A stretch of DNA of 64,000 nt, taken from Spirochaetae bacterium HGW-Spirochaetae-3 (GTDB taxonomy: Bacteria > Spirochaetota > Spirochaetia > Treponematales > UBA12059). Numbering within the stretch: position 1 is the first letter of the stretch; each line of letters starts with the position of its first letter. The position numbers and the translations under genes are program-made. Location: contig PGXV01000006.1 of NCBI GenBank assembly GCA_002839315.1, positions 63,176 to 127,175 of the forward strand. Direction: 5' to 3'. This document shows positions 1-50,136 of this stretch, one piece after another. A model generated the notes under the pieces. It saw only the letters and a list, made by a program, of their open reading frames with translations, had not been told where the DNA came from and ran no database searches.

Positions 1-776
1 GGCGCGACGTGAGCGCCGAGGGACGACGCGAGCATGTCGGCCCGCTCGGAAAGCGAGCCCTTGATGCGCCAGAAGCTCTCGTTGAATACGTTCGCGGCGG
101 TGACGAGGGCGTAGCGCTCGCGTTCCGAGTCGTCGGCGAGGGAGAAGCTCTCCTTCTTTATGCCTATTTTCCACGCGAAGGGCTGGCCTGCGCGGAGGGC
201 CAGACCCTCGAGCACCGTGGCGCCTATCTCCATGACGCGGCGAACCCGGTCCATGCAGTCGATGCGTAGCTCCACGCCGCGCAGGTCTGGCCGGGCTATC
301 CACAGAGCGATGGGCAAGGTAAGCGGGCCGGAGCCTATGTCGAGCACGCCGTCGCCCCGCTTAAGCCCGAGATCGAGCTCGGCGAGCAGGGGGGAGAGGC
401 GTACGACGTTCCACGGCAGGAAGTACCTGAGATACGCCGCGAGCTTGGCCGGTTCGCCGATATAGTCGGGCTGGCGGGTGGACTTCTGCCTTAGATCCTT
501 GTGCCGCCCGGCCGGCATCGGCGCGGCTTCCTCGACGATGTCTAGTAACGCCGAGACGAGTCGGGCGGAGTCCTTCGGGGCGACGGGCGTCTTATAAGCG
601 GATATGCCGAGCAACTTTGACGGGGCGTATACGACGCGAGGCGGCGCCACGTACTTGGGACGGTCCCCGGGGGATCGCTGGCCCGGCCGGGCCGCGGCCT
701 TGCCGCTCGCTGTATGTCGATTCCGATCGGGCCCGGGACCGCGCGGGCGCTTGTCATCGTGTCGTTCGTCGTTCAT
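1..776 (-). CDS. Rsm22-like SAM-dependent methyltransferase, C-terminus cut by the window edge
   Basis: The reading frame runs leftward from an ATG at 774-776 off the window edge, giving about 258 residues without a stop. The first 45 residues are basic, rich in R, P and G, and probably disordered. Around residues 140-155 is a class I methyltransferase motif I (DIGSGPLTLPIALW), followed by an acidic motif ending in RIDCMDRV, as expected for SAM binding. The spacing and the later segment with AANVFNESF resemble the Rsm22/mitochondrial small-subunit rRNA methyltransferase family, so rRNA is the likely substrate. That assignment is inference, because the C-terminal cysteine-rich part typical of Rsm22 lies outside the window. 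It is well separated from tdh and looks monocistronic here. Confidence 0.6.
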   Translation of the reverse strand, partial: MNDERHDDKRPRGPGPDRNRHTASGKAAARPGQRSPGDRPKYVAPPRVVYAPSKLLGISAYKTPVAPKDSARLVSALLDIVEEAAPMPAGRHKDLRQKSTRQPDYIGEPAKLAAYLRYFLPWNVVRLSPLLAELDLGLKRGDGVLDIGSGPLTLPIALWIARPDLRGVELRIDCMDRVRRVMEIGATVLEGLALRAGQPFAWKIGIKKESFSLADDSERERYALVTAANVFNESFWRIKGSLSERADMLASSLGAHVA

Positions 777-819
777 ATGCCGAACTATCGCACGTAGAGG
801 GCCGGCTTGCAATATCGCC

Positions 820-1000
820 ATCCATGATCGCCATCCATGGCGTTCCCGTCCGTGGAGCGGACGGGCCGTCCCGAGGCCGTGCATCCATGCGCGGCGCCAT
901 CCATGCGCGCCGTCCATGGCGTACCCGTCCGCTGGAGCGGACGGGCCGAGCTGTGGGCGCGCATCCATGCGCGCCATCCATGGCGTGCCCGTCCGGTGAG
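820..1000. repeat. Imperfect direct repeats with internal dyads (CCATCCATGGCG type)
   Basis: The 320-bp gap 777-1095 holds no credible gene. It contains three degenerate copies of a motif beginning GCCATCCATGGCG and continuing into CCCGTCCG, near 830, 909 and 973. Copies two and three are preceded by GCATCCATGCGCG. In the first two copies CCCGTCCG and CGGACGGG form a hairpin around a short TGGA-type loop. It resembles a small REP-like intergenic repeat; no copy was seen elsewhere in the window. Confidence 0.6.
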
Positions 1001-12603: not shown

Positions 12604-12652
12604 TTGACATGTCCGGATTATATCGGTAGTGTATTAACAACATAGTACACTA
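12604..12652 (+). promoter_or_regulatory. Promoter with overlapping YtrA-type operator
   Basis: TTGACA (12604-12609) and TAGTGT (12627-12632) are 17 bp apart. A perfect 7-bp inverted repeat, TAGTGTA (12627-12633) and TACACTA (12646-12652), with a 12-bp centre overlaps the -10 box and runs up to the ribosome site AAGGAG (12653-12658). The AGTGTA/TACACT halves resemble the operator recognised by YtrA-subfamily GntR repressors; the operon's third gene encodes such a regulator, so autorepression is likely. A near copy with identical geometry occurs at 45927-45975. Confidence 0.75.
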
Positions 12653-12664
12653 AAGGAGTATATA

Positions 12665-13555
12665 GTGTTACAGATTCAGTCCATGACCTTCGGGTATGGC
12701 AAGAAGCCGCTTTTCAAGGACTTCGACCTGACTCTGGAGCCCGGGGCCATCCACGGGCTCCTCGGGCTCAACGGGGCCGGCAAGACGAGTCTCTTGAAGA
12801 TCGCCGCCGGCGCCCTCCGTCCGACGGTAGGACGGGTAGAGGCCTTCGGCCGCGATCCCGCCGCCCGCGGAGCCGCCTCCCTCGCCGACGTGGCCTTCGT
12901 GCCCGAGGACCCCTGGTTCCCGGCCTTGAAGCCGGCCGCTTGGGTCGACAGGGTAGCCGTCTTCAGGCCCGCCTTCGACCGGCCGCGTTTCGAGGTCCTC
13001 GTCGACGAACTGGGGCTCGACGCCGACAAGCCCGTCTCCAAGTTCTCCTACGGGCAACGCAAGAAATTCGCTCTCGCGGCCGCCATCGCCAGCGGGGCGA
13101 GGCTCCTGCTGCTCGACGAACCGACCAACGGGCTGGACATACCGTCCAAGACGCAGTTCAGGCGCGTACTGGCCTCGGCCGTCGGTCCCGACCGTATCGT
13201 CGTCGTGTCGACCCATCAGGTCAGGGACCTGGAGAACCTGATAGACCCCATCGTCATCGTCGACAAGGGCCAGGTCGCGTTCGCGGTGAGCGCCGCCGAG
13301 CTTGACTCGCGCCTCCGCGTCGAGCGGCTATCGACCCTCGCGGGGCGGCCCGTCGTCTACGCCGAACGCGACGCGGTCGGCTGGACGGCCCTTCTCGCGG
13401 CCGGCCCGGGCGACGAGTCCGGAGGGGTTGATATGGAATTGGTGTTCAACGCCTCTATCGCTGCGCCCGAGCGCCTGCGAGCGGCTCTTGCCGGCGAGGC
13501 GCTGTCCGAGTTCAACCCCGAATCGCCCGAAGCCGGCATGGGAGGCCTATCATGA
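12665..13555 (+). CDS. ABC transporter ATP-binding protein (YtrB-like)
   Basis: A 296-residue ATPase starting at GTG behind AAGGAG. Walker A is GLNGAGKT (residues 34-41), Walker B LLLLDEPTNG is present, the signature region is degenerate (FSYGQRKKFALA, in place of LSGGQ), and an H-loop THQV follows. It is the first gene of a four-gene operon with a 4-bp overlap into the permease. The architecture ATPase, 6TM protein, GntR regulator, micro-membrane protein matches YtrA-type operons that respond to envelope stress. The truncated paralogue at 45989 shares its N-terminus. Substrate unknown. Confidence 0.88.
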   Translation: MLQIQSMTFGYGKKPLFKDFDLTLEPGAIHGLLGLNGAGKTSLLKIAAGALRPTVGRVEAFGRDPAARGAASLADVAFVPEDPWFPALKPAAWVDRVAVFRPAFDRPRFEVLVDELGLDADKPVSKFSYGQRKKFALAAAIASGARLLLLDEPTNGLDIPSKTQFRRVLASAVGPDRIVVVSTHQVRDLENLIDPIVIVDKGQVAFAVSAAELDSRLRVERLSTLAGRPVVYAERDAVGWTALLAAGPGDESGGVDMELVFNASIAAPERLRAALAGEALSEFNPESPEAGMGGLS

Positions 13556-14355
13556 ACCGCGACGGAACCGTAAACGGATTCTCGTTTTCCCGCGTGGCCC
13601 TGCTCGTCAGGAACAAGGCGTACGAGGACGCGCCGGCCATCCTCATAGGGCTGGCGATACTGATCGGCAACGACCTGCTGTCCCTGGTGTTCAGCCGGGT
13701 AGCGGTTACGAACGATGGACGCGGCCTCTATTACATCATCGCGATAACGGGCGGAGGATTGCTGCTGTCGGCGCTGGCCTTCAAGCGGATGCATGGCCGC
13801 TCGAGCGCGGACTGGATACTCCTGCCCGCGTCTCCATTGGAGAAGTACGCCGCGGCCTTCATCAGCTATATCGTCATCTTCCCGATAGCGGCGGCTATAG
13901 GGCTGTCGGGCGTATCGGTCTCGCTGTCGCTGCTCGAGCGCCTGGCGGGCGGGACGGGCGGGCGAATCTGGCATCCGTTCACCGTCGCGACGCTACGCCT
14001 CTACGGCGAATACGCGGCCGTGGCGGTAGCGTTCCTGGCCGGCTCGGCCACGTTCAGGAAGCGGGCCTTCCTCAAGACGGTCGGCGTCTCGATAGCCTAC
14101 GTATTAACCTGCTCCTTGCTGGTCATGCTGGGCCTCAGGATCATATACGGGCTACGCTTCGGCGATCCGTTCTCCGTGAAATTCGATTCCGGGGCGCTGA
14201 CCATAGGCGGCGCCTACGTACCCAACGCCGATGCGGTGCAAAAGGCGTTCGAGTACCTGGTACGCGGCGTCCGTCTCGCGTTGGTACCGGCCTTCTCCGT
14301 CGCGTTCGGGTATCTGCGTATTCTCGAGAAGGAAGCTCGCGATGAGGTTCAGTAA
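13552..14355 (+). CDS. ABC-2-type membrane permease subunit
   Basis: A 267-residue integral membrane protein with about six hydrophobic segments, for example IGLAILIGNDLLSLVF, YYIIAITGGGLLLSALAF, AAFISYIVIFPIAAAIGL and ALVPAFSVAFGYL. Its N-terminus RVALLVRNKAYEDAP and the LLPASPLEKYAAAF motif recall ABC-2 permeases of YtrA-type operons. It overlaps the ATPase gene by 4 bp and the GntR gene by 14 bp, so it is probably the partner of the ATPase. Sequence similarity to a named transporter cannot be judged by eye. Confidence 0.75.
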   Translation: MNRDGTVNGFSFSRVALLVRNKAYEDAPAILIGLAILIGNDLLSLVFSRVAVTNDGRGLYYIIAITGGGLLLSALAFKRMHGRSSADWILLPASPLEKYAAAFISYIVIFPIAAAIGLSGVSVSLSLLERLAGGTGGRIWHPFTVATLRLYGEYAAVAVAFLAGSATFRKRAFLKTVGVSIAYVLTCSLLVMLGLRIIYGLRFGDPFSVKFDSGALTIGGAYVPNADAVQKAFEYLVRGVRLALVPAFSVAFGYLRILEKEARDEVQ

Positions 14356-14719
14356 CGAGCGTCCCATCTTCATGCAGATAGCCGAGCTCATAGAGAAGGA
14401 CATCCTGTCGGGCCGGCTACGGCCCGGCGACCGGCTACCCTCGGCCCGCGAACTGGCCGTATCGCTCGAGGTCAACCCCAATACCGCGGCCCGGTCGCTT
14501 CAGTCGCTCGCGGACGGGGGCCTCGCCCGATGCGAGCGCGGCACCGGCTACTTCGTGGACGACGGCGGCGCCGAGCTGGCGCGGGCGGAACGGCGCAGGC
14601 GCTTCTTCGAAGCGGACCTGCCCGGCCTCTGGAAGAGTATGGACGAGCTGGGCTTGGGTATAGACGACCTGACCCGGCGATGGGCGGAGCGAGCCTCCGC
14701 CGAAAGGAAGATACCATGA
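14342..14719 (+). CDS. GntR-family regulator, YtrA subfamily
   Basis: A 125-residue protein: a GntR winged helix (RPIFMQIAELIEKDILSG, then SARELAVSLEVNPNTAARSL) with a short C-terminal helical tail of about 50 residues and no large effector domain, as in the YtrA subfamily. The ATG at 14342 follows AAGGAAG; a longer frame upstream would lie inside the permease gene. It overlaps the permease by 14 bp and the next small gene by 4 bp. It presumably represses the operon through the inverted repeat at 12627-12652 and possibly the second copy at 45950-45975. Confidence 0.88.
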   Translation: MRFSNERPIFMQIAELIEKDILSGRLRPGDRLPSARELAVSLEVNPNTAARSLQSLADGGLARCERGTGYFVDDGGAELARAERRRRFFEADLPGLWKSMDELGLGIDDLTRRWAERASAERKIP

Positions 14720-14811
14720 AGACGAGCTCAAAGGTCCTTATAGCGTTCGGCGCGGCCACGGTAGTGGCCATACTCGCCGCCCTCGCGGCCGTCGCCTCCC
14801 TCGCGGGCTAG
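14716..14811 (+). CDS. 31-residue single-pass membrane microprotein
   Basis: Tiny frame beginning with the ATG that overlaps the regulator stop (ATGA) behind AAGGAAG. The product starts MKTSSK and then has about 23 almost purely hydrophobic residues (FGAATVVAILAALAAVASL), so it is a predicted single transmembrane helix. Translational coupling and position in the YtrA-type operon argue that it is real rather than a chance frame. It could be a small subunit or modulator of the ABC transporter; no family is recognised. Confidence 0.6.
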   Translation: MKTSSKVLIAFGAATVVAILAALAAVASLAG

Positions 14812-21956: not shown

Positions 21957-24545
21957 GAAACACCCCCACACGCGTGGGGAAGACCCTTGCTAAGAGTCCC
22001 CGCCGACAGTAGAGCCGGAAACACCCCCACACGCGTGGGGAAGACCTGACGTCACCGGCGCGACGGTATCCGGGCGCAGAAACACCCACACACGCGTGGG
22101 GAAGACCCTCATCGTACCGCGCGGCACGGAGATCCGCTAGAAACACCCCCACACGCGTGGGGAAGACAGCGCGTCGAGGCCAGCGATGGTCTGCTCGATG
22201 GAAACACCCCCACACGCGTGGGGAAGACAGGGCACCCAATAATCGGCACCATACTTACTTGGAAACACCCCCACACGCGTGGGGAAGACTAGACGTATGA
22301 CTCGACGCCGTGCCGGCGGAGGGAAACACCCCCACACGCGTGGGGAAGACATTTCCTCGTAGGACTCCATCATGCCGAGCGCGGAAACACCCCCACACGC
22401 GTGGGGAAGACTTGCTTGACCATGTTTGCCCTATTGTGCCTCCGGAAACACCCCCACACGCGTGGGGAAGACCACTGTTCCTGCTGGCGAAATGTGGAAA
22501 CTTAAGAAACACCCCCACACGCGTGGGGAAGACCACAAAAGAAGCGGCCAGAAGTGCGATTCGGTAGAAACACCCCCACACGCGTGGGGAAGACGGCCAT
22601 ATGCGCCGCGCCGTAAGCAAGGGAGAGGAAACACCCCCACACGCGTGGGGAAGACCGGGGCAGAATGCTTTATCCGCTTTAATCCCGAGAAACACCCCCA
22701 CACGCGTGGGGAAGACCCGGTTATCGGGTTTACGAGCAAGTACGGATAAGAAACACCCCCACACGCGTGGGGAAGACAGCATAGTCAGACGCCTCGTCTA
22801 TCTCGTAGTAGAAACACCCCCACACGCGTGGGGAAGACTTCAGGCGCTTTAAGCTGGATAGGCCCGCTTGAGAAACACCCCCACACGCGTGGGGAAGACA
22901 CGCCATACGCGATGCAATCATGGGCGCATTCGGAAACACCCCCACACGCGTGGGGAAGACACTCGTTCACCTAGGAGGCCGCAATGGGCGACAGAAACAC
23001 CCCCACACGCGTGGGGAAGACCCCGCGGATACTTGGAGCGGAAGTCGTCGACCAGAAACACCCCCACACGCGTGGGGAAGACGGGTCAATGCCTATCTCG
23101 CTTTTAGTAACGCTAGAAACACCCCCACACGCGTGGGGAAGACAAATAACGCAAAAATCCAGCAAATAAATGCTTAGAAACACCCCCACACGCGTGGGGA
23201 AGACTTCGTCGCACCGGGCTTTGAGTGTGGCTATAGAGAAACACCCCCACACGCGTGGGGAAGACCCCCGGCAAGACGAATCTGTCAAGCCGAGGGTAGA
23301 AACACCCCCACACGCGTGGGGAAGACTCACTCTTTTGCGAATGAGGTGATAGTCTCTGAGAAACACCCCCACACGCGTGGGGAAGACGGCTTCCCATCGG
23401 GTGCGGTACCAGTCGTCGAGGAAACACCCCCACACGCGTGGGGAAGACGATACGACCTTCCCTAAGCCGGACTTCACCGCGGAAACACCCCCACACGCGT
23501 GGGGAAGACAGCAAAGGCGATCCCAGTTGCGAAGGGATCTTGGAAACACCCCCACACGCGTGGGGAAGACTTCCTATCTGATCCGCCAGGCGCGGAAACA
23601 GTAGAAACACCCCCACACGCGTGGGGAAGACAGACAGAACTCGAAACCATGACCCTCGTACCCGGAAACACCCCCACACGCGTGGGGAAGACCTACTCAT
23701 TGTATGACTCCATGATTTCGAAGAAGAAACACCCCCACACGCGTGGGGAAGACGTAAAAACGGAGCGGAAGGAACAAGCTCATGAAGAAACACCCCCACA
23801 CGCGTGGGGAAGACAGTCCAATCCCGGCTCGTTCCACTGATAGTGTGAAACACCCCCACACGCGTGGGGAAGACCCACCATATCAGGATGCAGGACGTCA
23901 CCGCCCAGAAACACCCCCACACGCGTGGGGAAGACTTATCCCGAGCACAACCCCCGAGACGCCAGAGAGAAACACCCCCACACGCGTGGGGAAGACGGTA
24001 ACCGGAAGGAGCACAAGGCCGAGCTCGAGGAAACACCCCCACACGCGTGGGGAAGACATTGCCCGGCCGCTTTGGCCTCTCGCTCCCGTAGAAACACCCC
24101 CACACGCGTGGGGAAGACGGCCCAGCGGGGCATGAAGATCGAGGGGCGCCAGAAACACCCCCACACGCGTGGGGAAGACCTGAAAGAAAGGAGGTGACAC
24201 CTATGCGGTACAGAAACACCCCCACACGCGTGGGGAAGACGGCGGCATGAGATGAAAGCCGTCTTAGACGCGAGAAACACCCCCACACGCGTGGGGAAGA
24301 CCCGAAACCGGAGACGACCACGAAAACAGACTTGGAAACACCCCCACACGCGTGGGGAAGACTTCCTTTCGTATGCCGTGCGGATTTTCTCCGTAGAAAC
24401 ACCCCCACACGCGTGGGGAAGACCGGAAGTTGACGTTTTCGATCAAGGGAATATCGGAAACACCCCCACACGCGTGGGGAAGACGCTACGTCGCGGGCTT
24501 CGATCTCGCCTGCGGTAGAAACACCCCCACACGCGTGGGGAAGAC
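21957..24545 (-). CRISPR. Type I-E CRISPR array, 43 repeats and 42 spacers
   Basis: The repeat is 28 bp. Read on the minus strand it begins GTCTTCCCCACGCG and ends GGGGGTGTTTC, with a CCCCAC/GTGGGG stem typical of I-E. The period is 61 bp (33-nt spacers) except one 32-nt spacer before 23847. All repeats look identical except the one at 22079, which has C to A at position 10 (plus-strand numbering). That decayed unit is third from the left end, which together with repeat polarity and adjacency to cas2 places the leader on the right. The spacer at 24180-24212 contains AAGGAGG and an ATG, so it covers the start of a foreign gene. Apparent reading frames through the array are an artefact of the repeats. 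Confidence 0.98.
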
Positions 24546-35100: not shown

Positions 35101-35371
35101 ATAACCCTTGACATCCCCCCCGTAAGCCCTACACTTACCCCAATGGCCGTCGTCCGGGCCCTTCCCGGGCGGCCGCTCATTTCAACATCGGCGATCCCCG
35201 CGACGTCACCACCGTAGTGCAGCGAACTCGAGATGCCCGGAGGTTCCAGTGGCGTACGCGACGGCGACGATTTGACTAGACTCGCGGGTTCCCCGCGTCC
35301 GTATGCTTCCCCCGTATCCGAATCCATCGCCGCCGCTTCCCCCGCGCGAGCCCCTTGGCAGAAGCACCCTG
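35101..35371. other. Gap between structured element and minisatellite
   Basis: Apart from a promoter-like pair at 35108-35135 and a GC-rich dyad near 35154-35168 (CCGGG/CCCGG), nothing recognisable. Long open frames cross it, but they lack start signals and resemble no protein. Confidence 0.45.
35108..35135 (+). promoter_or_regulatory. Candidate promoter reading into the minisatellite
   Basis: TTGACA (35108-35113, perfect) and TACACT (35130-35135) are 16 bp apart. If used, it would transcribe the hairpin minisatellite as a leader of about 690 nt ahead of the gene at 35835. Confidence 0.45.
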
Positions 35372-35770
35372 CCGCCGTACTGCTGAGATCCGCCCCCGAA
35401 CCGAAGAGCGTTGCCCCCGTACTGCGGGGGCACGCCCTCGAACCGCGGAGCGTTGCCCCCGTACTGCGAGGGCACGCCCCCGAACCGAAGAGCCTTGCCC
35501 CCGTACTGCGAGGGCACGCCCCCGAACCGAAGAGCGTTGCCCCCGAACCGAAGAGCGTTGCCCCCGTACTGCGGGGGCACGCCCCCGAACCGCGGAGCAT
35601 TGCCCCCGAACCGAAGAGCATTGCCCCCGTACTGCGGGGGCACGCCCCCGAACCGAAGAGCATTGCCCCCGAACCGAAGAGCATTGCCCCCGAACCGAAG
35701 AGCGTTGCCCCCGAACCGAAGAGCATTGCCCCCGAACCGCGGGGGCACGCCCCCGAACCGCGGAGCGTTA
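35372..35770. repeat. 21-bp minisatellite of two alternating unit types (about 19 units)
   Basis: Tandem units of exactly 21 bp. Type A reads CCCCGAACCGAAGAGCGTTG (variants with GCGGAG or GCATTG); type B reads CCCCGTACTGCGGGGGCACG (variants with GCGAGG). Type B units contain the hairpin CCCCCG-TACTG-CGGGGG. A and B alternate irregularly; the right part is mainly A. Because 21 is a multiple of 3, every frame stays open on both strands, giving LFGSGAM- or PNRRALP-like repeats; no frame has a convincing ribosome site, so I treat it as non-coding. Confidence 0.85.
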
Positions 35771-44949: not shown

Positions 44950-45297
44950 TTATTCTATGCCCCTCGATCCGTTCGGGAGGCCCGTTTCCCATATCGCGTC
45001 CGCTGCGGCCGCCAGGTCGACCCGTACTTCATCCAGGCGGCCCGAAGCGGCCGCGCTCCCCAGGCTCGACGCCAGCGCGCCCTCGGCCTGCCGGGGCCAG
45101 GCGGCCGCGGCGCACAGGGTCAGGCACGCCGCCAGGGCCAGGCTCGAGCGCCAGTCTCCCGCCCGGGCCGATCCGGCGGCCCTCGTCGGCGGACTCGGCA
45201 GGCGCGGGGGCGGCGGCGCGCGGCGGGCGGCCGCCTCGATATCGTCCTCGAAGTACGCGCGTAGCCCGGCTTCCGCCTTCTCGATGTCGTCAAGCAT
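44950..45297 (-). CDS. Single-pass membrane protein, candidate anti-sigma factor
   Basis: A 115-residue protein overlapping the sigma-factor gene by 8 bp. The N-terminal 50 residues are charged and proline-rich (ARRAPPPPRLPSPPTRAAG), then a transmembrane helix (SSLALAACLTLCAAAAW) and a short external tail. Size, topology and coupling to an ECF sigma gene suggest an anti-sigma factor. The usual zinc-binding HxxxCxxC motif is missing, so the assignment rests on context. Confidence 0.5.
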   Translation of the reverse strand: MLDDIEKAEAGLRAYFEDDIEAAARRAPPPPRLPSPPTRAAGSARAGDWRSSLALAACLTLCAAAAWPRQAEGALASSLGSAAASGRLDEVRVDLAAAADAIWETGLPNGSRGIE

Positions 45298-45859
45298 CGT
45301 TCACCTCCGTCGCCAGCCTGAGTCGCTCCCTCAGACGGTGCATGCGCCACTTTACCGTGCCCAGCGGCGCGCCCGTCGCGCGGGCGGCGTCCGCCAGGCT
45401 CATCGAGCGGCCGTACACGAGGAAGGCCAGCTCGCGCTCGCGCTCCGGCAGCGAGCGCACCAGTTCGGCTATCGCGGCCTGTTCGCCCCGCCGCAGGCAT
45501 TCCGTCTCGGGACTCGGTCGCCGCTCGTCGGCGATGGAGCGTAGATCCTCGGGCGCCGAGTGCGTCTCCGCGCGGCGGGATGTCGCCCGGAGGCGCGACA
45601 GGGCCAGTCGGCGGGCCACGGCGACGAGCCAGGGCTCGAACGGCCGCTCGGGACGGTAGCGGTCGGCCCGCTCGAAGGCCCGCAGCACGGCGTCGCCGGC
45701 CAGTTCCTCGCGGTCCTCCGGCGATAGCCCGGAGAACGAGCGCAGGTAGGCTTCCAGCCGCGGCCGCCATTCTTTCCATAACGAGTCGAAGAGGCGCTGC
45801 CTGTCGTCGGCGGGCAATATCCGGTTTTCCGCGAAAGCGCGGCGTCTCTCAAGCTCCAT
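45290..45859 (-). CDS. ECF-type RNA polymerase sigma factor
   Basis: A 189-residue sigma-70 family protein. Region 2 lies about residues 25-90 (WRPRLEAYLRSFSGLSPED, then AVLRAFERADRYRPERPFEP and WLVAVARRLALSRLRA). Region 4 lies about 125-180 (LVRSLPERERELAFLVY, MSLADAARATGAPLGTVKWR). The start at 45857-45859 is preferred over a much longer frame that reads backward through the relict ABC gene and lacks similarity. It is followed by a membrane protein and a MotA-like protein in the same direction, so it is probably controlled by them. Regulon unknown. Confidence 0.85.
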   Translation of the reverse strand: MELERRRAFAENRILPADDRQRLFDSLWKEWRPRLEAYLRSFSGLSPEDREELAGDAVLRAFERADRYRPERPFEPWLVAVARRLALSRLRATSRRAETHSAPEDLRSIADERRPSPETECLRRGEQAAIAELVRSLPERERELAFLVYGRSMSLADAARATGAPLGTVKWRMHRLRERLRLATEVNDA

Positions 45860-45926
45860 ATACCCGAGTATACGCGCGGAAGGCCTGAAAGGTTGGCGGC
45901 TACGACGTATTATCTTCGCCCGGAGC

Positions 45927-45975
45927 TTGACGTTCGTGTAACATTCCGCTGGTGCATTAAGTGCCTGGTACACCA
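45927..45975 (+). promoter_or_regulatory. Second YtrA-type promoter/operator
   Basis: TTGACG (45927-45932) and TGGTGC (45950-45955) are 17 bp apart, and TGGTGCA (45950-45956) with TACACCA (45969-45975) form an inverted repeat with a 12-bp centre (6 of 7 pairs). Box placement and spacing are identical to those at 12604-12652. It precedes a truncated ABC ATPase gene. Confidence 0.65.
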
Positions 45976-45988
45976 AGGGAGAACAGAC

Positions 45989-46168
45989 ATGATTACATGC
46001 GATTCCATGACCTTCGGGTATGGAAAGAGGCCGCTCTTCGAGGGCCTCGATCTCTCGCTCGCGCCGGGCGCCGTATACGGCCTGCTCGGGCACAACGGTG
46101 CCGGCAAGGTAGAGGTCTTCGGCCGCGTCCCCGGCGGCCGTTCCGCGGGATACTGGCCGAGCGCCTAG
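45989..46168 (+). pseudogene. Relict ABC ATPase gene, paralogue of the 12.7-kb ATPase
   Basis: The 59-codon frame matches the first part of the ATPase at 12665: SMTFGYGKRPLFEGLDLSLA against SMTFGYGKKPLFKDFDLTLE. At Walker A (GHNGAGK) the frame skips straight to VEVFGR, a 51-nt in-frame deletion that removes the Thr of Walker A and the following 16 residues. It then stops after RSAGYWPSA, where the rest of the ATPase is missing. GGGAG precedes the ATG. It cannot encode an active ATPase; it is the remnant of a duplicated YtrA-type operon. Confidence 0.75.
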
Positions 46169-46599
46169 GGCGTCAGCTCGAAGACGCACTCGTCGCCGTC
46201 CCAGAGCGTCTCCCTGACCTCGAGTCGGCGGGGCTCGGGCAGGGCTCCGGCGAGCCCCGCGAAGGGGTTGATGCACGATATCGAACACGGAGCCGGGGCG
46301 CCGAGCTTCTTGGCTATGGCGCAGGCCAGGCAGGAGCCGGTCTTCGCGCGGAACGTCCGGCCCTCGGTCTCCGTCGTCCAGGCGGCGCATCCGAAGATGG
46401 CCGAGAAGGTGGCGAAGAGGGCCTCGGGCGTCGTTATACCGAGTCGCAGGAGTTGGCCGGGCGCCGCGGCCTCCTGCTCGCGCCTCTTGGCCTCGGTTAC
46501 CTGTTCGAGGACGCCGTGGGCCTCGTACTGTCTTGCGGCGTCTACCAGCGCTCCCGCGTAGAAGAGTTGCAGGGTCTTCAGGGTCTGGGTTTCGTTCAT
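46165..46599 (-). CDS. Cysteine-containing protein, possibly L-2-amino-thiazoline-4-carboxylate hydrolase-like
   Basis: A 144-residue soluble protein. The N-terminal helix LKTLQLFYAGALVDAARQYE is followed by the core TGSCLACAIAKKLGAPAP and CSISCINPF, with four cysteines in about 22 residues. The pattern recalls the L-2-amino-thiazoline-4-carboxylic acid hydrolase family, but I cannot confirm it by eye. GGAGGAACGGAC precedes the ATG. It is convergent with, and overlaps by 4 bp, the relict ABC gene. Alternatives: a small ligand- or metal-binding sensor. Confidence 0.5.
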   Translation of the reverse strand: MNETQTLKTLQLFYAGALVDAARQYEAHGVLEQVTEAKRREQEAAAPGQLLRLGITTPEALFATFSAIFGCAAWTTETEGRTFRAKTGSCLACAIAKKLGAPAPCSISCINPFAGLAGALPEPRRLEVRETLWDGDECVFELTP

Positions 46600-46710: not shown

Positions 46711-47481
46711 ATGGACGTCGGGGACGCGCGGCGGGAATACGATCGGGTCCTTACGCTGGCGACTCTTCGAGCGGAGGATTGCGACGAGTCGAGGCTCGCC
46801 CATCACCTGCCGTTCCTGGAGCGGCTCGACGCCGTGGACGGCAGCTCGGTCGCCCTCTTCGACGTGCGCACGCGATCGTACCGCTTCCTTACGTCGTCGT
46901 TCCGGTTCCTGGGCGGCTATCCGCGCGAGGAGGCGATGACGGGAGGGCCGGACTACTTCTTCAGGCTCATGCACGCGCCCGACGTTCCGTTCGTGCTCGA
47001 GACCGTCTCCAGGACCTTCCGCTTCCTGTACTCGCTGCCCGCCGCGGAGCGCGCTCGCTACAAGCTGACGTTCGAATTCAGGATCGAGGCGGCTTCGGGC
47101 GGCCTCGTCAGGATAGTCCAGCAGGCGGTCGTCCTGGAACTGGACGCGCGCGGCAACGTCTGGCTCGTGCTCATCGCCAACGACCTCGCTCCCGGGGGCT
47201 CGCTCGAAGCGGATCCGGAACGGCGGCTCGTCGACATCCGGACCGGCGACGGGTACCTGTTCCCGCGCGACGCGCCGGACCCGGACCGCGCCCCGCTATC
47301 GAGGCGGGAGCTCGAGGTGCTCGGGCTCGTCGCCTCGGGCATGGCGAGCCGGGAGATAGCCGACCGCCTGTTCCTCAGCGTCGCGACGGTGAACAACCAC
47401 CGCCAGCGTATCCTGGAAAAGCTCGGTACGAGGACGAGCGCCGGGGCCGTGCGCTACGCGGCCGCCGCGGGACTGGTCTGA
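46711..47481 (+). CDS. LuxR-family regulator with PAS-like sensor
   Basis: A 256-residue protein. Residues about 35-150 form a PAS-like domain (VALFDVRTRSYRFLTSSFRF and later QQAVVLELDARGNVWLVLI). The C-terminal 65 residues are a LuxR HTH: LSRRELEVLGLVASGMASRE then IADRLFLSVATVNNHRQRIL. There is no receiver domain, so it is probably a one-component ligand or redox sensor. GGAGGCGGC precedes the ATG. It is divergent from the Cys-rich protein gene; the 111-bp region between them contains the dyad at 46658. Confidence 0.87.
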   Translation: MDVGDARREYDRVLTLATLRAEDCDESRLAHHLPFLERLDAVDGSSVALFDVRTRSYRFLTSSFRFLGGYPREEAMTGGPDYFFRLMHAPDVPFVLETVSRTFRFLYSLPAAERARYKLTFEFRIEAASGGLVRIVQQAVVLELDARGNVWLVLIANDLAPGGSLEADPERRLVDIRTGDGYLFPRDAPDPDRAPLSRRELEVLGLVASGMASREIADRLFLSVATVNNHRQRILEKLGTRTSAGAVRYAAAAGLV

Positions 47482-47539: not shown

Positions 47540-47580
47540 CTAGTTAGCCGGATTCATAGCAGAAGCGTATCGGAGTGCAC

Positions 47581-48375
47581 ATGTCGGGCGGAGATAAAAA
47601 AAATATCCTCCTCGTGGAGGACGAGGCGCTCATAGCGATGGCCGAGAAGGCGCAGCTCGAGCGCTACGGCTATGCCGTCGTGACGGCTACGAGCGGCGAG
47701 AAGGCCGTAGAGGCCGTGGAGCGAAACCCGGGGATCGACCTTATCCTCATGGACGTCGACCTGGGCAGCGGCATGGACGGAACGCAGGCCGCCGCGATCA
47801 TACTGGAGAGCCGCGACATACCCGTCGTGTTCGTCTCCTCCCACGGCGAACGGGAAATCGTCGAGAGGACCGAGAAGATCACCTCGTACGGCTACGTCGT
47901 CAAGAGCTCGTCGATCACCGTGCTGGACGCATCGATCAAGATGGCCTTCAAGTTGTTCGACGAGAAGGAAAAAGTGGATGAAGCGATCGACGCCCTTCGG
48001 ACCCACGCCCAGCTGCTCGAGAACGTTATCGACCGGTTCCCTGGTTTCGTCATCTGGAAGGATACCGATTCCGTCATACGCGGATGCAATAACAATTTCG
48101 CCTTGAAGTGCGGGTACTCTTCGTCGTCGGAGATAATCGGGAAAACCGACTATGACCTCCCGTTCCGTCCGGATGAAGCCGACTCCTTCCTCGCGGACGA
48201 CAGGGAGGTCATGCGGACCGGGATACCCAAGCTGCACTTCGAGGAAGTCGAGCATGTCGCGGATAACGAGCTGATGACCCTCGAGACCAGCAAGATGCCG
48301 CTGTACGATGCATCCGGACGGGTCTCCGGCATCCTGGCTGTCGCGACCGATGTCTCGGAGCGCAGGAAGCTATAG
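47581..48375 (+). CDS. Response regulator with C-terminal PAS domain, possibly a truncated kinase
   Basis: A 264-residue protein. Residues about 5-120 are a receiver domain: ILLVEDEALIAMAEK, phospho-acceptor Asp in LILMDVDLGSGMDG, then VVFVSSHG and YGYVVKSSS. Residues about 145-262 are a PAS domain ending in VSGILAVATDVSERRKL. The chain stops just where PAS-linked histidine kinases continue into the HisKA helix, so it may be a shortened hybrid kinase or a receiver that works through its PAS domain. A GTG two codons earlier overlaps GGAG and is less likely. A degenerate heptamer array follows, between this gene and fumarase. Confidence 0.8.
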   Translation: MSGGDKKNILLVEDEALIAMAEKAQLERYGYAVVTATSGEKAVEAVERNPGIDLILMDVDLGSGMDGTQAAAIILESRDIPVVFVSSHGEREIVERTEKITSYGYVVKSSSITVLDASIKMAFKLFDEKEKVDEAIDALRTHAQLLENVIDRFPGFVIWKDTDSVIRGCNNNFALKCGYSSSSEIIGKTDYDLPFRPDEADSFLADDREVMRTGIPKLHFEEVEHVADNELMTLETSKMPLYDASGRVSGILAVATDVSERRKL

Positions 48376-48438: not shown

Positions 48439-48475
48439 TATCTTCCACAGATCACAGATAGCGGATCACCGATCG
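48439..48475. repeat. Degenerate heptamer array at the fumarase 3' end
   Basis: Read on the minus strand: GATCGG-TGATCCG-CTATCTG-TGATCTG-TGG followed by AAGATAGCG. The units are diverged copies of TGATCTG, and the flank matches the AAGATAACG that follows the TGATCTG array at 15380-15412. The fumarase stop codon (48466-48468) is the TGA of one unit. Confidence 0.65.
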
Positions 48476-50136
48476 CGGATTCCCGCGTAGTAATCCTCTC
48501 CCCGCGCGTCGACGGCTACCAGCGCCGGCAGTCCCCTGAGCTCTACGAGCCGTATCGCCTCCATGCCGAGCTCGGGCCAGTCTATGACCCGGCACGACGA
48601 TACGTAGCGCGACGCGGCGAGCGCGGCCGCTCCGCCCAGGGCCGCGACGTAGGCGCCTCCGTGGCGCGCGCAGGATTCGCGGCAGGCGGGGCCGCGCTCG
48701 CCCTTGCCTATGGTAAGCGGGAATACGCCGCGCTCGCCGAACGATTCCAGGTAGGAGTCCATGCGCTTCGACGTCGTCGGGCCTATGGAGCCTACGGCGG
48801 CGCCGTCCGGCGTCTCGGTGGGGCTGGCGTAGAACGCTGGGTAGGCCGTCCAGTCGGGTAGCGGCTCGCCGCGGTCGATCATAGCCTGCAGGCGGGCGTG
48901 GGCGGCGTCGCGGGCGAGTACGGCCTTTCCCCAGAGCGCGACGAGCTCTCCGGAGCGGAGGCCGGCGACGGCGGCCCTGGCCTCGGGGGTTCCCGGAGCG
49001 CCGAGGTCGACGCGCCTGGCCTCGCCGAATCCGCCGGGAGCAGCCTCGCCGGCCGCGGGCGCGATGGTCGCGCCGGCTACGATGCGCCCGACGTCGTTCG
49101 CGTCGGCGAGCCGCTCCATGAAGTATCCGTCGCGCGATACGTAGGCGTAGGCCTGGCGGTGCGCGGAGCACGATACGGCGACGACGACCGGGAGGCTGGC
49201 GGCGTGGCGCGGCAGCCGGATTACCCGCGCGTCCCGCGCCAGGAAGCGGCCGCCGAGCTGGGCGCCCCAACCGGAGCGGGCGGCGGCGTCCATCACGAGC
49301 GCTTCGAGGCCGCGGTCGCGGTACGGGCCGCCCCGCGTTTCGGGGCGAGGGGGCAGCGCGTCGAGGGCGCCGGCGCTGGCCAGCTTGCCCGCGAGCGTCG
49401 CCTCCTCGGGACTCTGGCCGCCGAGCACGACGGCTATCCGGTACGGCGGGCACGCGGATACGCCCAGGCCAGCGATGGCCGACGCTATGAAGGACGCGAA
49501 GGCCTCGGGGGCGAGCAGGCGCTTGGTCTCCTGGAAGAGGGCCGTCTTGTTGGACGAGCCGCCGCCCTTGGCGACGAACAGGAACCGGTATTCGTCGCCG
49601 CGCACGGCCGATATATGGGCCGATAGCGGGGCGTTGTCGCCGGTATTCGCCTCGCCGAGGTCGGGCAGGGGAGCGACCTGGCTATTCCGCAGGCGCTTCC
49701 GCTTCCACGCGGCCAGCGCTCCCGCGGCCAGGGCCCCGGCGTCGCCCGAGGGGCCGTCCACCAGGACGCCGTCGCCCTTCCAGCCGTATACCGCCGCGGT
49801 GCCCGTGTCCTGGCAGACGGGGTAGGTGCCCGCGGCCGCTATCGCGGCGTTCTCGAGCAGGGAGGCCGCCGCGTAGCGGTCGCGCCCGTCGGAGCCGGGA
49901 TCCGAGGCAACGGCCGCCAGCTGGGAGAGGAAGGAGCTCCGCAGCCTGAACTGGACGTCGCCGAAGGCCCGTTCGGCCAGGGCCGCGAGAGCCGACTCGG
50001 GTACCATGATGAAGTCGCGGCCGAGCGCCCGCTCGGCTCTAGGCGGGTCCAGCGGGAGTCGGTCGAAGGCCACGGGAAGATCGCCGTCGCGGGCCGCCCG
50101 TATCGATGCGTAGAAAGCGTCGTCTGATCCGTGCAT
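48466..50136 (-). CDS. Fumarate hydratase, class I (iron-sulfur)
   Basis: A 556-residue fused class I fumarase (alpha and beta parts in one chain). Iron-sulfur and active-site signatures: PVCQDTGTA near residue 110, KGGGSSNKTAL near 195, and SACPPYRIAVVLGG near 240; the beta part has GSIGPTTSKRMDSYL and GKGERG. It interconverts fumarate and malate and is oxygen sensitive, fitting an anaerobe. The start ATG is 24 bp from the divergent promoter of the next operon. The C-terminal residues IRDR and stop lie inside the heptamer array, so the end of the protein has been set by the repeat. Tartrate dehydratase is the main alternative. Confidence 0.9.
   Translation of the reverse strand: MHGSDDAFYASIRAARDGDLPVAFDRLPLDPPRAERALGRDFIMVPESALAALAERAFGDVQFRLRSSFLSQLAAVASDPGSDGRDRYAAASLLENAAIAAAGTYPVCQDTGTAAVYGWKGDGVLVDGPSGDAGALAAGALAAWKRKRLRNSQVAPLPDLGEANTGDNAPLSAHISAVRGDEYRFLFVAKGGGSSNKTALFQETKRLLAPEAFASFIASAIAGLGVSACPPYRIAVVLGGQSPEEATLAGKLASAGALDALPPRPETRGGPYRDRGLEALVMDAAARSGWGAQLGGRFLARDARVIRLPRHAASLPVVVAVSCSAHRQAYAYVSRDGYFMERLADANDVGRIVAGATIAPAAGEAAPGGFGEARRVDLGAPGTPEARAAVAGLRSGELVALWGKAVLARDAAHARLQAMIDRGEPLPDWTAYPAFYASPTETPDGAAVGSIGPTTSKRMDSYLESFGERGVFPLTIGKGERGPACRESCARHGGAYVAALGGAAALAASRYVSSCRVIDWPELGMEAIRLVELRGLPALVAVDARGEDYYAGIRDR

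Follow-up and report, generated by a model that had tools for sequence, protein, structure and literature searches.

Our analysis of a 64,000-nucleotide stretch of genomic DNA (the window) indicates, with good confidence, that the site at 45927-46168 is what remains, in a decaying state, of the 5' end of an ABC operon of the YtrA type, which once stood complete between an ECF sigma factor gene and a fumarase gene. The features of this region are listed below. Counterparts are given from locus L025/L162 on contig C31 (JAHIWG010000050.1) of G004, the member of the genus nearest to the source genome by shared genes and by NUDIX and fumarase identity.

45290..45859, minus strand: ECF sigma factor gene, anchoring the synteny on the upstream side (81% identity to G004)
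45927..45932, plus strand: remnant -35 hexamer TTGACG (TTGACA in L025)
45950..45975, plus strand: degenerate YtrA-type operator TGGTGCATTAAGTGCCTGGTACACCA, from motif match and comparison with intact sites
45950-45955: former -10, TGGTGC, within the remnant operator (TACTGT in L025)
45989..46168, plus strand: ABC ATPase remnant of 59 codons (codons 1-40 homologous, then deletion, short tail and stop)
46165..46599, minus strand: small protein with a weak ATC_hydrolase match below the Pfam cut-off
46711..47481, plus strand: LuxR-type regulator with a GerE domain
47575..48375, plus strand: receiver-PAS protein, third gene of the block
48466..50136, minus strand: class I fumarate hydratase, anchoring the synteny on the downstream side (77% identity to G004)

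The promoter-operator of the remnant (45927-45975) reads TTGACG-17 bp-TGGTGCATTAAGTGCCTGGTACACCA; its spacing and inverted-repeat geometry are intact and identical to those of the live site. The open reading frame behind it aligns to the live ABC protein across codons 1-40, after which exactly 51 nt (17 residues, TSLLKIAAGALRPTVGR) are missing, the gap lying between 46108 and 46109. Beyond the gap 33 nt are recognisable at 85%, and 19 codons lead up to the stop. The preliminary description had reported an in-frame deletion of this size that cuts Walker A and is followed by truncation. The deletion and the truncation are both there, but the Walker A lysine is retained and the Thr next to it is the first residue lost. 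Together with this Thr, the Q-loop, the signature and Walker B are gone. The permease and GntR genes are absent at the locus, where blastn reveals no 3' remnant of either ahead of the fumarase gene, and a search of Rfam around the remnant gave no match.

The live operon (12604-14811) consists of the following elements, all on the plus strand.

12604..12652: promoter-operator TTGACA, 17 bp, TAGTGTATTA-N6-TAGTACACTA, the left arm overlapping the -10
12665..13555: ABC ATPase
13552..14355: permease, with no Pfam match
14342..14719: YtrA-like GntR regulator, 125 aa
14716..14811: hydrophobic peptide of 31 aa, its start overlapping the GntR stop

The live control unit can also be written TTGACA-17 bp-TAGTGTATTAACAACATAGTACACTA. 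Both units, each with an inverted repeat around a 12-bp centre, are present where the preliminary description had placed them, and its claim that a YtrA-type operator, a homologue of the live one, precedes a dead ABC gene is confirmed. The N-terminus of the live regulator is a GntR winged helix (PF00392, E 6.9e-16) and about 50 residues follow it within the total of 125 aa, which may correspond to the very short C-terminal domain of the YtrA subfamily (about 50 aa, two helices). The regulator is encoded together with ABC transporter genes, as is usual for that subfamily. AGTGTA and TACACT half-sites around a 12-bp centre are found in the live site, in 28 orthologous sites and at most of the 65 loci of a wider set, and the live GntR protein would act as a repressor of its predicted operator. 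Its recognition-helix region (VNPNTAARSLQSLAD) is identical to that of the L025 regulator, which suggests that either regulator could probably read both operons. The 31-aa peptide has no Pfam match, and each of the 13 further close operons examined has a small ORF resembling it after the GntR gene. A second YtrA-like regulator (L002, G000 C18:303700-306906; 42% identical) was considered as the binder of the remnant and rejected: its own upstream sequence, TTGTATTA-N6-TAGTACAA (read by eye), has the same geometry but another half-site, and is unlike the remnant.

With at most one mismatch allowed, the pattern TRGTGYA-N12-TRCACYA is present at only two places in the 3,883,727-base genome, namely the live and the remnant operators, each site being scored twice, once per strand. 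A control search with the pattern reversed hits one place, and zero chance matches of the 26-mer pattern are expected in the 64-kb window.

Comparison with G004 reveals the order sigma - operator - ABC - permease - GntR - fumarase. The operon there is complete at the position of the remnant, has the usual -10 and operator, and includes a hydrophobic peptide of about 30 aa. Presence of an intact operon at this place in a close relative suggests that the remnant site is an inherited leftover. At the DNA level the remnant is 88% identical to the start of the G004 ABC gene over 156 nt and 80% identical to the live copy over 105 nt, and in the tree it groups with L025 (support 77). A block of three genes, encoding the small protein, the LuxR-type regulator and the receiver-PAS protein, stands where G004 has the remaining operon; the first two of these genes adjoin in G015 and G020 as well. 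The ECF sigma gene was not found in the six other genomes of the genus, so that the operon at the sigma-fumarase place can be compared in a single relative, G004. With an intact orthologue at the equivalent position and essential parts missing from the remnant, the site is best filed as a pseudogene plus a decaying control region which, judged by the bases compared, would not be a functional operator.

The operators of 28 intact operons give the consensus TAGTGTAYTA-N6-TARTACACTA, in which A2 and T6 occur in every site (28/28) and A18 in 27/28. In the remnant these near-invariant bases are replaced by G2, C6 and G18. The identity of geometry claimed earlier for the two operators holds, but in sequence the remnant departs from the intact operators at these three positions. 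The remnant operator scores 14.9 bits on one strand and 16.4 bits on the other, whereas even the weakest intact site reaches 27.3 bits with a profile from which it was itself omitted. Among the Spirochaetota sites with upstream sequence printed, a -35 TTGAC usually lies 17 bp before the operator and the left arm of the operator is the -10, TAGTGT or TACTGT. In sigma-70 promoters, the most needed -10 bases are the equivalents of operator positions 2 and 6.

Between the remnant and L025, 6 of 26 operator positions and 7 of 120 coding positions have changed (Fisher p 0.013). All six operator differences fall on the remnant side when polarised with the live copy, L024 and L027. Part of the excess in the operator may come from a drift of this A+T-rich site towards G+C. 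Ten codons are unlike between the remnant and L025, and in six of them the residue is changed. The wider set, which is mostly Bacteroidota and overlaps the first set in part, has a recognisable operator upstream of 62 of its 65 loci, and each of the remnant's three changes is seen there singly in a few of the more distant loci (A2G in 5/62, T6C in 1/62 and A18G in 3/62). Occurrence of each single change in other operators means that residual binding is possible; no wider-set site with three or fewer mismatches carries two of the remnant changes, the combination being read from the list of sites. The two arms of the remnant operator retain some of their symmetry. Selection for a symmetric change, at positions 2 and 25, was also considered and dropped, because chance alone yields a symmetric pair half the time (expected probability 0.52 for 6 random changes in 26 positions).

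The preliminary description had suggested two reasons for which the site might have been kept, as a decoy or as the promoter of another transcript, and neither suggestion is supported by our analysis. As a decoy, the operator would have been retained to titrate the live GntR repressor, raising expression of the live operon. The right half-site is indeed near natural variants, the spacing is intact and the remnant is the sole second match in the genome; a YtrA-like regulator of Xanthomonas citri has also been reported to recognise GGTG-N16-CACC (PMC6746942), which the remnant happens to fit. However, A2, T6 and A18 are lost and the score lies far under that of every intact site. The operator has moreover been changing faster than the dead coding part, which is the opposite of what is expected of a kept decoy, and a single extra site would presumably titrate little. 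We consider such retention improbable. It is just as doubtful that the remnant binds the live GntR protein weakly, as a small titration site tuning the replacement operon; if true, the operator of a dead operon would still be tuning the operon that replaced it.

Retention of the promoter for another transcript, or control of the divergent sigma gene by the operator, appears very improbable. Some 90 bp separate the site from the start of this sigma gene, and the -35 is largely retained, but the -10 (TGGTGC) lacks both A2 and T6. The first gene beyond the remnant (46165-46599) runs antisense to it, hence no intact gene stands directly behind the remnant promoter. The sigma gene has, in addition, a conserved upstream block of its own, CCAACCTTTC...CGTATAC (window 45865-45900, minus strand), which is kept in L025, lies closer to the sigma start and looks like the gene's own promoter. 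Hardly credible is a partial duplication, in which a piece of the 5' end of the live operon was copied to the place of the remnant. The two regions are clearly homologous, but the remnant is nearer to the G004 operon than to the live copy and stands at that operon's place, and copying from the live operon was dropped on grounds of synteny and identity.

Simple decay of a resident operon accounts for the data, and a weak residual binding of the repressor might persist. According to this explanation, the operon was formerly whole at the sigma-fumarase place, while a functional-looking copy 33 kb away would have arrived separately. Given the second copy, the resident operon might have become dispensable, redundancy being the probable cause. 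Most of it would then have been lost and the three-gene regulatory block would have come to occupy its position, although the order of these events could be different. The remaining promoter-operator and 5' codons would have been drifting since, with a presumably weakened binding of GntR.

The origin of the live copy can be approached through its neighbours. In G001 and G002 the PAS and NUDIX genes that flank the live operon stand side by side, with the operon absent and about 107 bp separating the matched parts. This adjacency in two congeners suggests, though not firmly, that the live copy reached its present place separately. A third location is seen in G003 and G006, whose operon is flanked by the orthologues of window 3-875 and 1099-2133. 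A tree of three concatenated proteins joins the live copy to L024 and L027 (of G006 and G003, respectively; 99/97), with L025 falling outside; placing the live copy and L025 as sisters fits less well, but the AU test does not reject it (p 0.086). The lineage probably held two diverged operons, derived from an old duplication or a transfer, of which one is now being lost.

About 57 nt at codons 6-24 show zero differences between the remnant and L025, which is odd for a dead gene, though intact operons, too, show an unusual conservation in part of it. Codons 6-12 (TCC ATG ACC TTC GGG TAT GG; window 12680-12699 and 46004-46023) have near-identical synonymous sites across families, the stretch being present in L024, L025, L027, L029, L030, L031, L034 and L073 as well, all in GC-rich genomes. 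Codon agreement is 0.76 in two segments, 6-10 and 16-20, and about 0.3-0.6 in the rest of codons 1-60. Codons 6-12 could form a UUCG-loop hairpin, which in most cases is stabler than synonymous shuffles and shows some covariation, but its pairs are broken in L026, L028, L035, L037, L183 and L184. On this mixed evidence the nucleotide stretch at codons 6-20 appears conserved and a hairpin is possible.

Elsewhere in the window, 22014-24545 holds a CRISPR-like array whose repeat, near AGAAACACCCCCACACGCGTGGGGAAGAC, recurs with a period of 61. At 816-973, the position where G003 and G006 carry the operon, two 80-bp units follow one another in tandem, with a palindromic core of CCCGTCCG...CGGACGGGC, and a similar palindrome adjoins the operon in L024. 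Tandem 21/63-nt repeats (GCCCCCGAACCGAAGAGCGTT) lie at 35370-35739; ORFs at the start of L025 (550-930) have repetitive translations resembling them.

The remnant alone alters no general view, being an ordinary decay of a displaced operon that is well documented by synteny. It offers a clear, small example of operon loss in which a second copy has settled elsewhere and the control region, promoter as well as operator, decays together with the genes. The decayed operator leaves a site that motif scans would count as a regulon member. A by-product of the analysis is the well-conserved operator of a YtrA-type operon common to Spirochaetota and Bacteroidota. Literature on YtrA with Spirochaetes or Bacteroidetes yielded nothing on the present operon.

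Among the closest known systems, the G004 operon shares place, neighbours and operator architecture with the remnant but is complete. A sequence relative of the live GntR protein is the YtrA-family structure of Corynebacterium glutamicum (2DU9, 2EK5; E 1e-10), which is a family relative only. In Bacillus subtilis, YtrA binds AGTGTA-13 bp-TACACT ahead of two operons, ytrGABCDEF and ywoBCD (PMC8060467), and that system resembles the present one in its GntR regulator of the YtrA type, its ABC genes and the occurrence of AGTGTA...TACACT at two loci. However, the centre is 13 bp long there and 12 bp here, the regulator gene precedes the ABC genes in B. subtilis whereas it follows them here, and the second site stands before an intact operon in B. 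subtilis but before a dead fragment in the window.
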